Of a stretch of DNA of 64,000 nucleotides, positions 30,682 to 35,007 are shown one piece after another. Every line of letters begins with the position of its first letter. Position 1 is the first letter of the stretch. The stretch is taken from the NCBI RefSeq assembly GCF_018141405.1, contig NZ_CP058648.1, positions 1,937,001 through 2,001,000 on the forward strand, given 5' to 3'. Source of the DNA: Serpentinicella alkaliphila (GTDB lineage: Bacteria > Bacillota > Clostridia > Peptostreptococcales > Natronincolaceae). A program made the translations under genes and the position numbers. Under the pieces are notes generated by a model, which was given only the letters and a program-made list of their open reading frames with translations, did no database searches and was not told where the DNA came from.

Positions 30682-31674
30682 CTATCTATATTGATAATTC
30701 TCTATTAACTCTCTAACTGTATGTAGATCCTTTGTTTTACCTAAGGCCAACATTAGTTTAATTCTAGCTTTTTGTCCTGGTAAATCCCCGCCGAAAATAA
30801 CACCCATTTTACGAAGATCATTACCCCCACCCTCATATCCATAATTGTGCATCACTCTTCCTGTAGGACATCTAGATATTAAAACAACAGCTATGCCTTT
30901 ATCTATAGCATTTTTAATACCGGATAGCATTTTAGGGGGTACATTTCCCCTTCCTAGACCTTCAATAACAAGACCGCTTACTCCAGAGTTAACACAATGG
31001 TTTATTAGATTTGAATCCATTCCTGCTACACATTTAATTAGTTCAACGTTAGTGTCTATTTTCTCAGTTATTATATGCTGCCTATTAACAACTTTTCGAT
31101 GGAAAATCACATCATCACCGTCTACTATACCTAAGGCACCAAACTCTAAGGATTTGAATGTATCTAGACTAAGTGTATTTGTTTTAGTGACCTCACTGGC
31201 AGCATTAACATCGTTATTCATAACAACTAGAGTACCTTTATTATGACTTTGAGGGGATATAGCAGTACATACTGCTGCAGCTAAATTACTAGGCCCGTCA
31301 TATCCTAGCTCAGAACTATTTCTCATGGCACCTACCATAACTATAGGTTTAGTAGAATCAATAGATAAATCAAGTAGGTATGCTGTTTCTTCTAAAGTAT
31401 CTGTACCATGGGTTATAATAACCCCACAAATATCAGCTCTATCCAGATTTTGAATTACTAGTTCTCTTAGTTTCATCATCATATCTGGGTCCATATGTGG
31501 TCCAGGAATATTTGAAAAATCTATAGTTTCAATTTCAGCATATCTATCTATATTTGTAACTAATGCTAGAATTTGTTCATTCGATAAAGATGGGATTGCA
31601 GCACCAATTCTCGGATCAACAGACATAGATATGGTGCCACCCGTAAATATTATAGCAACCTTAGGTTTATTCAT
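30682..31674 (-). CDS. L-asparaginase, cytoplasmic
   Basis: 330 residues. Nucleophile motif 'TGGTIS' with Thr14 and the second motif 'THGTDTLEET' with Thr91-Asp92, plus a Lys in 'VTKTNTLS' completing the catalytic set. No signal peptide, so probably cytoplasmic. Hydrolyses asparagine to aspartate and ammonia. AGGAGG site before ATG. It has its own extended -10 promoter (TGTTATAAT) located downstream of a separate small-RNA transcription unit. Confidence 0.92.
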   Translation of the reverse strand: MNKPKVAIIFTGGTISMSVDPRIGAAIPSLSNEQILALVTNIDRYAEIETIDFSNIPGPHMDPDMMMKLRELVIQNLDRADICGVIITHGTDTLEETAYLLDLSIDSTKPIVMVGAMRNSSELGYDGPSNLAAAVCTAISPQSHNKGTLVVMNNDVNAASEVTKTNTLSLDTFKSLEFGALGIVDGDDVIFHRKVVNRQHIITEKIDTNVELIKCVAGMDSNLINHCVNSGVSGLVIEGLGRGNVPPKMLSGIKNAIDKGIAVVLISRCPTGRVMHNYGYEGGGNDLRKMGVIFGGDLPGQKARIKLMLALGKTKDLHTVRELIENYQYR

Positions 31675-31698
31675 ATAAAAACCTCCTATTTAAGATAT

Positions 31699-31707
31699 AT
31701 TATAACA
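31699..31707 (-). promoter_or_regulatory. extended -10 promoter element for the asparaginase gene
   Basis: On the minus strand TGTTATAAT (TGnTATAAT), about 25 bases before the gene start. The -35 is weak, as is common for extended -10 promoters. Confidence 0.45.
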
Positions 31708-31750
31708 CTAAATAATTTAATTATAAGGGAAAAAATAGCAGAATAAAAGA

Positions 31751-31776
31751 TAAAAAAAATACCGGGCAAGGCCCGG
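31751..31776 (-). terminator. terminator of the candidate small RNA
   Basis: CCGGGC / GCCCGG with a 3-base CTT loop, then TA and eight T on the minus strand. The only GC-rich stem in this AT-rich spacer. Confidence 0.85.
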
Positions 31777-31856
31777 CCACATTGGATAATGTGGTTTGTT
31801 TAAAAGGGGTATTGGGAATAGAGATTATATTTCTAGGTTATCAGGGGGATAACCAT
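31751..31856 (-). ncRNA. candidate small RNA, about 105 nt, C-rich, with terminator
   Basis: On the minus strand the predicted RNA begins just after a good promoter. It has hairpin 1 (GGTTATC, loop CCCCT, GATAACC; 31854-31836), an unpaired linker carrying CCC and CCCC, hairpin 2 (CCACATT, loop ATCC, AATGTGG; 31794-31777), and hairpin 3 (CCGGGC, CTT, GCCCGG; 31776-31762) followed by eight T. No ORF with a ribosome site is visible. The C-rich loop and linker are complementary to AGGGGG/GGGGA ribosome sites, as in RsaE/RoxS-type sRNAs, but the sequence is not one I recognise. Alternative: a leader/attenuator for the asparaginase gene, less likely because that gene has its own promoter. Confidence 0.6.
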
Positions 31857-31862
31857 AAAAAT

Positions 31863-31891
31863 ATTATAACAAAATTCGACAAAATACGCAA
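31863..31891 (-). promoter_or_regulatory. promoter of the candidate small RNA
   Basis: Minus strand: TTGCGT (31891-31886), exactly 17 bases, TATAAT (31868-31863) preceded by TG at the extended -10 position. The expected start is near 31856. Confidence 0.7.
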
Positions 31892-31936
31892 CAATTTGAC
31901 AAATTTTTTTATTATTTATTTAAGTTATTTAAAATT

Positions 31937-31965
31937 TTGTAAATAGGTTAATTATGTTATATAAT
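31937..31965 (+). promoter_or_regulatory. sigma-A promoter for the LUD-domain gene
   Basis: TTGTAA, 17-base spacer, TATAAT, about 35 bases before the ATG; divergent from the small-RNA promoter. Confidence 0.6.
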
Positions 31966-31998
31966 TATTCCCAGGAAATATATTAGGGGGGAAGTCAT

Positions 31999-32613
31999 AT
32001 GGACGAAAAAGTAAGAGAATTAATTTCTAAACTTGAGGAAAGAGGAATAAAGACAAAATATTTTAGAACAAAAGAAGAAGTTAAAAAAGAGATAACAACA
32101 GAAATTAATCCAGATATGGTTGTTGGTATAGGGGGCTCTATGACTATTAAAGAACTTGAAATATATAGGGATTTACAGTCAAAACAAGCTAAAGTTTATT
32201 GGCATTGGATGGTTAGGCCAGAGGAAAGAGATGAAGTTAGAAGAAAGGCCTCATTTACTTCAGACATATTTTTAACAAGTACAAATGCTATAACTGAGCA
32301 AGGTGAATTAGTAAATATAGATGGAGTGGGAAATAGAATAAGTGCAATGTATTATGGGCCTAAGAAGGTGATTATTGTTTGCGGTAAAAATAAAATTTGC
32401 AAGAATCAATCATCAGCAATTTCTAGAATTAAAAATATTTCCTGTCCACAAAATGCTAAAAGACTTGGACTAGAAACACCATGTGCCATAGAAGGAATAT
32501 GTAAAGACTGTGATTCTGAAGAGAGAATGTGTAATGTGACTACAATAATTAATAGAAAGCCAAAGAACATTGACCTTAATATTTATTTTGTAGACCAGGA
32601 ATTAGGTTTTTAA
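31999..32613 (+). CDS. LUD-domain protein (LutC-like, DUF162)
   Basis: 204 residues with the LUD fold pattern 'VVGIGGSMTIKELEI' and 'FLTSTNAITEQGELVNIDG'. A Cys-rich C-terminal segment ('CAIEGICKDC', 'RMC') may bind metal. Related LutC/LldG proteins work in lactate oxidation, but here there are no lutA/lutB neighbours, so that role is not supported. Ribosome site AGGGGGG. The next gene, a cysteine desulfurase, follows after 61 bases. Confidence 0.85.
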   Translation: MDEKVRELISKLEERGIKTKYFRTKEEVKKEITTEINPDMVVGIGGSMTIKELEIYRDLQSKQAKVYWHWMVRPEERDEVRRKASFTSDIFLTSTNAITEQGELVNIDGVGNRISAMYYGPKKVIIVCGKNKICKNQSSAISRIKNISCPQNAKRLGLETPCAIEGICKDCDSEERMCNVTTIINRKPKNIDLNIYFVDQELGF

Positions 32614-32674
32614 AATTTTTTTAAGGAAATAATAATAATATAGAGGCAGTATTTGAAAATTTGGAGGAAGAATA

Positions 32675-33823
32675 ATGGAAGTTTATTTAGACAATGCGGC
32701 TACCACAAGACCTAAGGATGAGGTTATAGAGGCTATTTCTTGGGCTCTTAAAAATTTATATGCAAACCCATCTTCTCTACATAGAAAGGGCTTGGAGGTT
32801 GAAAAGGAAATAAAAGAATGTAGAAAAGTAGTAGCTAGAGCACTAGGCTGTAGTGATAAGGAAGTGGTTTTTACCTCTGGTGGAACTGAGTCAAATAGCT
32901 TAGCAATTAATGGTTTGATTATGGCTAATAGAAGATCAGGAAATCATATTATTACAACCAAAACAGAGCATAAATCTGTTCTAAATACTTTTGAACATCT
33001 AAGTAGTAATGGCTTTGAAGTAACCTATTTAGACGTTGATAGAGAGGGCTTTATATCTTTAGAGAGGTTAAAAGAGTCTATGAGACCGGATACGCTTTTA
33101 GTAAGTATAATGCATGCAAATAACGAAACCGGGACTATACAACCAATTATGGAAATTGGAGAAATTATAAAAAAGATAAATAGAAATACTTTATTCCATG
33201 TAGATGGAATTCAAGGTTTTGGAAAAATAAAGTTTAACGTAAAACAGGCTAATGTGGATACATATGCACTAAGTGGCCATAAAATTCATGGGCCAAAAGG
33301 TATAGGTGCCCTATATATTAAATCTGGAGTTAAAATTCAACCAAATTTATTAGGTGGCAGCCAAGAAAATAATTTAAGAGCAGGGACAGAAAATGTGCCA
33401 GGTATTGTTGGTCTGGCTAAAGCAGCTAGTTTAATTAGTGAAGAAAATATTGAATATATGAGGGGCTTAAAAGCATATTTAGTTAAGAGCTTACATGAGT
33501 GTATTGATGATATACATTTTAATAATGGGATAAATGATAATTTTACTCCCCATATTATAAATGTCTCATTTAAAGGCATTAGAAGCGAAATAATGCTTCA
33601 TAGCTTGGAGCAGGATGGGGTATATGTATCATCAGGTTCTGCCTGCACCTCTAGGAAAAAGGATTTTAGTCATGTCTTAAAGGCTATGGGGTTAAAAGAA
33701 GATATAATTGATAGTGCTATAAGAATAAGTATAAGTTATACTAATACAAGAGAAGAGATTGACTATGCAGTTGATAAAATTAATAAGCATTTAAATGATT
33801 TAAGAAAAATAATTAAGAGGTGA
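32675..33823 (+). CDS. cysteine desulfurase (NifS/IscS class)
   Basis: 382 residues. PLP-binding Lys in 'LSGHKIHGPKGIGALYI', aminotransferase class V block 'FTSGGTESNSLAINGL', and the catalytic Cys loop 'SSGSACTSRKKD'. Transfers sulfur from cysteine. Only 5 bases before thiI, which suggests that it feeds sulfur to ThiI for 4-thiouridine in tRNA, as NifZ does in Bacillus. No iscU adjacent. Confidence 0.93.
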   Translation: MEVYLDNAATTRPKDEVIEAISWALKNLYANPSSLHRKGLEVEKEIKECRKVVARALGCSDKEVVFTSGGTESNSLAINGLIMANRRSGNHIITTKTEHKSVLNTFEHLSSNGFEVTYLDVDREGFISLERLKESMRPDTLLVSIMHANNETGTIQPIMEIGEIIKKINRNTLFHVDGIQGFGKIKFNVKQANVDTYALSGHKIHGPKGIGALYIKSGVKIQPNLLGGSQENNLRAGTENVPGIVGLAKAASLISEENIEYMRGLKAYLVKSLHECIDDIHFNNGINDNFTPHIINVSFKGIRSEIMLHSLEQDGVYVSSGSACTSRKKDFSHVLKAMGLKEDIIDSAIRISISYTNTREEIDYAVDKINKHLNDLRKIIKR

Positions 33824-33828
33824 CATAA

Positions 33829-35007
33829 TTGGGTAAAGTAGTTATTGTAAGGTATGGAGAAATTAGTTTAAAAGGATTAAATCGCAGATTTTTTGAGGAT
33901 AAGCTTTTAAAGCATGTTCGAATTGCAGTTAGTGACTTAGGTAAACCTAGAGTATACAAAGAGCATAGTAGAATATATGTAGAAGCACAAAATGGTAATG
34001 AGGTTGAAATTGTTGAACGAATTAGAAAGATCTTTGGAATTGTATCTATAAGTATAGCTAATAGGTTTGAAGTTAATATGGACACAATAAAGGAATATGT
34101 AAAAAATGAAATTGAAGTGGCAATAGAAAAAAGAAATACTAAGACCTTTAAAATTGAAACAAAAAGAGCGGATAAAAATTTCCCTATGGATTCCCTTGAG
34201 ATAAACAGAGAGTTAGGGGCATACATTTTAGACGAGTTTGAAGATATACAGGTTGATGTACATAATCCAGATATTTTAGTTACTGTAGAAATAAGAAATA
34301 GCGCATTTGTATATAGTGAAAAAATATATGGATTCGGTGGACTACCATTAGGAACAAATGGAAAAGCAATGCTGTTACTTTCTGGTGGTATAGACAGTCC
34401 TGTGGCTGGCTGGCTAGTTGGAAAAAGAGGGGTACAAATTGAAGCCATTCATTTTCATAGCTATCCTTTTACAAGCGATAGAGCAAAGGAAAAAGTTGTT
34501 GAGCTAGCTAAAATACTTTCAAGGTATTTTGGTAAATTTAGATTACACTCTATAAATCTTCTACCTATACAAAAAGAAATAAATGAAAAATGTCCTGAGG
34601 AGGAAATGACAATATTAGCTAGAAGGTTTATGATGAAAATCGCTGAAAGAGTTGCTATAAATAGAGGCTGTGAAGCACTAGTAACTGGGGAAAATATTGG
34701 ACAGGTAGCAAGTCAGACTATACAAAGCTTAAATGTAACTAATAGCGCTGTACAAATTCCAGTATTTAGGCCTTTGATTACCATGGATAAAATGGAGATA
34801 GTAGACCTTGCTAAAAAACTAGATACATATGAAACTTCAATTTTACCTTTTGAGGACTGTTGTACAGTATTTTTACCAAAGAGACCTGTAACAAAACCTA
34901 GACTAGATAAGATTTTAGCTTCTGAACAATTGCTTGATGAAGAAAGGTTAATAAATGAAGCTATGGACAACATTGTGGTTGAGGATATTTACTTAGATGA
35001 AATATAG
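33829..35007 (+). CDS. thiI: tRNA 4-thiouridine(8) synthase / sulfurtransferase
   Basis: 392 residues, TTG start after AAGAGGTGA. N-terminal ferredoxin-like and THUMP domains (about 1-165), then a PP-loop ATPase domain with SGGIDS at about residue 185. A C-terminal rhodanese extension is absent, as is typical of Firmicutes. Adenylates and thiolates U8 of tRNA and can supply sulfur for thiamine thiazole. Confidence 0.95.
   Translation: MGKVVIVRYGEISLKGLNRRFFEDKLLKHVRIAVSDLGKPRVYKEHSRIYVEAQNGNEVEIVERIRKIFGIVSISIANRFEVNMDTIKEYVKNEIEVAIEKRNTKTFKIETKRADKNFPMDSLEINRELGAYILDEFEDIQVDVHNPDILVTVEIRNSAFVYSEKIYGFGGLPLGTNGKAMLLLSGGIDSPVAGWLVGKRGVQIEAIHFHSYPFTSDRAKEKVVELAKILSRYFGKFRLHSINLLPIQKEINEKCPEEEMTILARRFMMKIAERVAINRGCEALVTGENIGQVASQTIQSLNVTNSAVQIPVFRPLITMDKMEIVDLAKKLDTYETSILPFEDCCTVFLPKRPVTKPRLDKILASEQLLDEERLINEAMDNIVVEDIYLDEI

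Follow-up and report, generated by a model that had tools for sequence, protein, structure and literature searches.

The intergenic spacer between an ansA-like asparaginase gene and the LUD-domain gene in Serpentinicella alkaliphila almost certainly contains the gene of a small C-rich RNA (sRNA), a member of an sRNA family that is new to Rfam and spans one order of spore-forming clostridia, with 130 species or more carrying it. The kind of RNA, C-rich and directed at ribosome sites, is already known. Spo0A is the master switch of spore formation, and the core of its binding box lies in the promoter of this gene. The window, that is, the whole stretch of DNA analysed, comprises 64,000 nucleotides; an original prediction made on it had described the RNA and its structure, but neither the Spo0A box nor how widespread the family is, and it did not name spo0A among possible targets.

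The reading favoured here, and regarded as reasonably probable, is that of a trans-acting, growth-phase sRNA that masks G-rich ribosome sites and that Spo0A~P switches off. The RNA of about 105 nt would be produced during growth from a housekeeping (sigma-A type) promoter, and binding of Spo0A~P to the TGTCGAA box between the -35 and -10 elements would turn it off at the start of sporulation. The C-rich seeds (CCCCCUG in the loop, CCC and CCCC in the linker) would pair with G-rich Shine-Dalgarno (SD) sites and block ribosome loading. With spo0A as a target, through its AUCAGGGGGG site, the sRNA and Spo0A would be mutual repressors in a double-negative switch. If so, growing cells would keep the spo0A site covered by the RNA, whose gene Spo0A~P would silence, giving an all-or-none sporulation decision in bacteria without the Bacillus phosphorelay. 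The wider proposal, in which an sRNA that is ancient in the order and also has divergent relatives in another, Clostridiaceae-like family forms a double-negative switch with Spo0A, is more doubtful. Since Rfam holds no such order-wide family, many genomes could be annotated with one model, and the joint presence of the Spo0A core in the promoter and of C-rich seeds fitting the G-run of spo0A makes post-transcriptional feedback on Spo0A testable in many species.

Architecture and independence of the sRNA gene

The promoter, hairpins, C-rich segments and terminator predicted on the minus strand were all recovered by sequence reading and folding (Table 1). The three hairpins were returned with a z-score of -4.6, none of 200 shuffled sequences folded as well, and the spacer holds one terminator where 0.1 would be expected by chance. 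Taken alone, the promoter does not rise above chance: TTGCGT matches at three of six positions, and the element is absent from the promoter scan list. Its two hexamers are 17 nt apart, and it becomes convincing because it is conserved across relatives. A sequence resembling the second, imperfect Spo0A-like box, TTTGTCAAAC, is present in several promoters of the same family in the promoter alignment.

Table 1. Features of the sRNA gene and its surroundings (window positions).
Feature	Position	Strand	Basis or remark
Spacer	31675-31998		between ansA-like asparaginase gene (-) and LUD-domain gene (+)
Whole sRNA unit, promoter through terminator	31752-31891	-	sequence reading
Second Spo0A-like box TTTGTCAAA, imperfect, upstream of -35	31895-31903	-	sequence
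-35 hexamer TTGCGT	31886-31891	-	TTG invariant here in 59/59 aligned promoters
Spo0A box TGTCGAA, within the -35/-10 spacer	31875-31881	-	TGTCG equidistant from -10 in 58/59 promoters; core per PMC3485338
-10 hexamer TATAAT, extended TG (TGT-TATAAT)	31863-31868	-	sequence and promoter alignment
Predicted sRNA, about 105 nt, +1 near 31856	31752-31856	-	sequence, folding, conservation
5' hairpin GGTTATC-CCCCT-GATAACC, C-rich loop	31836-31854	-	folding, alignment, covariation
Single-stranded linker AATCTCTATTCCCAATACCCCTTTTAAAC, CCC and CCCC seeds	31798-31826	-	nearly invariant, 54 sequences
3' hairpin CCACATT-ATCC-AATGTGG	31777-31794	-	folding; sequence differs between species
Intrinsic terminator CCGGGC-CTT-GCCCGG and U8 (T8 in DNA)	31752-31776	-	terminator scan
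ansA-like asparaginase gene	30682-31674	-	downstream neighbour; conserved context, outside the RNA
LUD-domain gene, nifS, thiI	31999-35007	+	divergent; conserved context, outside the RNA

In most families the sRNA gene occupies the same spacer, between ansA and LUD-nifS-thiI, and ansA follows downstream on the same strand. This arrangement would suit an RNA that works in cis, as leader or attenuator of the gene that follows it (ansA in this genome), in place of a trans-acting RNA. Such a role is very improbable, because the downstream gene differs between clades: it is often yprB-like in family f10, and in Clostridioides-like genomes it is a convergent ABC-transporter gene, the copy standing alone between this gene and nifS-thiI. 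Moreover, ansA has its own GGAGG ribosome site, the terminator is complete and no Rfam leader matched; with a genomic context that is not constant, the assignment as an ansA leader was rejected. Still less credible is that the 5' hairpin is a tiny leaderless peptide gene (MVIPLIT and variants). The hairpin is indeed opened by ATG or GTG in many members, but several clades have no start codon, neither frame nor length is conserved, the length differences of the linker are not multiples of three, and there is no ribosome site; this candidate was likewise discarded. What is found is a non-coding gene with its own promoter and terminator, a conserved structure and independence of the flanking gene, as expected of a trans-acting sRNA. 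The claim of a stand-alone sRNA is strongly supported by conservation across the order, covariation, the terminators of other members, and a downstream gene that changes or is convergent.

Distribution of the family and comparison with known sRNAs

A nucleotide search with the sRNA DNA gave matches in 132 of 198 related genomes, representing 78 of 103 genera and most sampled families of the order; a few of the weakest, such as L107, are probably due to chance. An exact-pattern scan of named genomes matched Alkaliphilus, Anaerovirgula, Anaerosolibacter, Geosporobacter, Thermotalea, Maledivibacter, Marinisporobacter, Tissierella and one Peptostreptococcaceae genome. Genus g47 is taken as Clostridioides because the spo0A promoter of its genome G109 agrees with the published C. 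difficile 630 spo0A promoter at 38 of 39 bases.

Among 54 aligned sequences, hardly any variation is seen in the loop CCCCCTG or in the linker ATCTCTATTCCCAATACCCCTTTT. In the 5' hairpin, six of the seven stem pairs have changed on both sides, compared with 0.5 in shuffled alignments, and 96% of cells pair in this helix versus 18-54% when it is slid. A terminator follows the RNA in 58 of 64 members. Conservation and covariation, which the original prediction had proposed to look for in related genomes, are therefore both present.

With a covariance model of the family, strong matches came from the order itself and from a single genome (G333) of another family of the class, and a second model had no match outside the order in a 299-genome sample of the phylum. 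In the Clostridiaceae-like family f51, where matches are weak, a divergent relative that is itself highly conserved occurs in 79 of 116 genomes, a count obtained with a model that included f51 sequences; this relative keeps CTCAATACCCTTTT and lacks the C5 loop. Since the first model matched f51 only at E values of 1e-4 to 1e-3, homology is probable, not proven; the f51 RNA is probably a distant relative. It appears as a nearly invariant sRNA of 65 nt (L156, L157, L159, L161, L162, L316-L325), lies near genes resembling yabG and a SPOCS-domain gene, and has TGTCG at the -10 element in most cases.

Two further variations on the gene were observed. At loci L033-L038 it is duplicated in tandem, the copies lying about 180-250 bases apart, each with promoter and box, and the second copy has a C-loop terminator. 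The Peptostreptococcaceae-like family f3 has a second type of sRNA (L091, L092, L093, L094, L100, L101, L102, L165) whose promoter has the Spo0A box as well; besides a TTCCCC loop it contains four more C-rich stretches (ACTCCCC, TTCCCT and twice ACCCCTT).

The absence of a recognisable family, as originally predicted, was borne out by an Rfam scan of the window and eight relatives, which gave no match at the gathering score, so that membership of an Rfam family was rejected. The best sub-threshold match in the spacer was SorX (E = 0.016), resting mainly on the terminator. RsaE/RoxS of Staphylococcus and Bacillus is an sRNA of about 100 nt that targets ribosome sites through unpaired C-rich seeds and is controlled by ResD/SrrA. 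The resemblance to it noted in the original prediction holds for the layout, namely the size of about 100 nt and the unpaired C-rich seeds fit for ribosome sites, but does not extend to sequence or clade, nor probably to promoter control, the promoter here showing a conserved Spo0A core; no Rfam covariance match to RsaE/RoxS was obtained in the window and eight relatives, nor any at E values up to 10 in the spacer. The sRNA is not an RsaE/RoxS member. LhrC of Listeria and the cia-dependent csRNAs of Streptococcus answer to LisR and CiaR. Like them, which are multicopy and whose loops and linkers have C-rich motifs that can pair with ribosome sites, the present family is found in tandem in some genera; it differs in carrying a Spo0A box instead, and neither sequence nor Rfam links it to them (no Rfam sequence-family match to LhrC or csRNA in the window and eight relatives). 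SR1 of Bacillus subtilis, which represses kinA (PMC8501984), likewise feeds into Spo0A activity, but encodes a peptide, is assisted by CsrA and shows no sequence relation.

The Spo0A box in the promoter

The Spo0A box is defined as TGTCGAA (TGNCGAA) (PMC3485338, PMC7643835), with specific Spo0A contacts at G2, C4 and G5 of the core TGTCGAA (PMC3485338). For comparison, 59 promoters from families f1, f3, f5, f6, f11, f12 and f57, including the Clostridioides lineage, were aligned on the -10 element; two g87 members, which did not fit the frame and have no box, were left out. In this alignment TGTCG occupies positions -13 to -9 from the -10 element, each base being present in 58 or 59 of the 59 promoters, and these positions hold 1.9-2.0 bits versus about 0.6 bits in the spacer just before them. 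The contacted bases G2, C4 and G5 are invariant, and the last two A of TGTCGAA vary. A box at the promoter, the sequence mark of the Spo0A regulon, is hence present.

In families f8 and f10 the same positions contain almost no information; in f8 and some f10 genomes with canonical Spo0A, the box lies just upstream of the -35 element instead. Outside the seven aligned families it is shifted or missing, chiefly where Spo0A has diverged or is lacking, and most f51 relatives have TGTCG at or beside the -10 element. Across 72 genomes the presence of the spacer box is associated with canonical Spo0A (48 yes and 10 no versus 3 yes and 11 no), with a Fisher P of 2.6e-5, a value that ignores the relatedness of the genomes. 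Among the exceptions is the complete genome G030, in which no Spo0A was detected and the box is perfect. Because the core of the box is conserved and goes with canonical Spo0A, the operator is well supported, and binding of Spo0A to it, as read from sequence, is probable. No earlier report linking this sRNA to Spo0A was found in the literature searched.

Repression by Spo0A is rather more likely than activation and is inferred from the location of the box between the -35 and -10 elements; in C. difficile, Spo0A directly represses the sin locus through such boxes (PMC7643835). Were the same conserved sRNA activated by Spo0A~P, its synthesis would start when sporulation begins, and it would then repress growth-phase mRNAs. 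The fixed position of the box relative to the core promoter, the second imperfect box upstream of -35 in the family of this genome, and the f8 and some f10 boxes just upstream of -35, a typical place for activation, speak for this possibility. It is nevertheless unlikely, as in most families a protein bound between the -35 and -10 elements would compete with RNA polymerase, and extended -10 elements so close to consensus point to a promoter that works unaided.

Candidate targets and mode of action

The loop CCCCCUG and the linker CCC and CCCC are unpaired and conserved according to folding and alignment, and pairing of these C-rich segments with G-rich SD sites, in an anti-Shine-Dalgarno mode, is fairly likely. 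The G-run ribosome sites that many genes of the window were said to use do exist, but are a minority: GGGG falls within the SD window of 15 of 65 window genes. The ribosome site of spo0A has a run of five to six G in all 32 leaders from the order, and is AUCAGGGGGG in the S. alkaliphila genome; the loop sequence CCCCCUGAU complements it over nine bases, the nine-base complement at spo0A being AUCAGGGGG. About half of the spo0A leaders outside the order have a run of G5 or more; G263, a genome of f51, the family in which the RNA is without the C5 loop, has GGAG at this site.

The pairing-energy check for targets gave a divided result. Set among 5-9 local leaders, spo0A came out on top by duplex energy in 17 of 28 genomes, but in S. 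alkaliphila, among window genes, it ranked 6th of 66 by duplex energy and 11th of 66 by co-fold. Neither energy singles out spo0A among the 66 leaders, and mutation of the C-loop left the co-fold energy with spo0A unchanged because the linker was chosen for pairing instead; the thermodynamic ranking of window targets, not being specific, was discarded. For the same lack of discrimination by energy, targets remain inferred. A single conserved target fully complementary to the linker was also rejected, since GGGGTATTGGG sites outside the RNA lie in unrelated places. Searches for seed-plus-ATG patterns gave few sites per genome and no shared gene; the search in relative G006 led to spo0A. Pairing with spo0A is plausible, and spo0A may be a target, though not the sole one: f10 genomes without Spo0A still carry the RNA, so others must exist. 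Direct targeting of spo0A, as suggested by the complementarity, is put forward tentatively.

The LUD gene beside the sRNA has a ribosome site, TTAGGGGGG (31985-31998), much like that of spo0A, and is among the top six of 66 pairing partners by duplex energy.

Short seeds would not require a conserved stretch as long as that of the linker, which could indicate that the linker is a protein site and that the RNA works through CsrA or some other RNA-binding protein. Of 64 members, 26 have CGGA, similar to a CsrA site, in the 3' region, and no Hfq was detected in S. alkaliphila; however, the S. alkaliphila sRNA lacks CGGA, and the shared part is the C-rich motifs, which 23 of the 64 have again in the 3' region, making a protein-binding role improbable next to base pairing at ribosome sites. 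Where CGGA occurs in the 3' hairpin region (e.g. L031, L033, L071), it is often in the loop as ACGGA, resembling the CsrA motif ANGGA. An Hfq gene was undetectable in the S. alkaliphila genome (G000, complete, 3.26 Mb), in f6 and in the listed f10 genomes, so Hfq is not needed family-wide and dependence on it as a family trait was rejected; it is present in other searched members of the family of S. alkaliphila.

In C. difficile, translation of spo0A is reduced by the sRNA SpoY (nc020), which base-pairs with the G-rich ribosome site of this mRNA and has a proposed role in the growth phase (PMC10267692). SpoY is Hfq-assisted and derived from a 5'UTR, sharing the start site of CDIF630_00827 (PMC10267692), whereas the Clostridioides copy of the present family is a stand-alone gene and is no 5'UTR there, as the convergent ABC-transporter gene comes next. 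Identity with SpoY is unlikely, the locus seeming different in a comparison by locus description. Eight further sRNAs were found ligated to spo0A in C. difficile besides SpoY (PMC10267692); the Clostridioides member could be among them, and the C. difficile copy may thus already be catalogued, unnamed.
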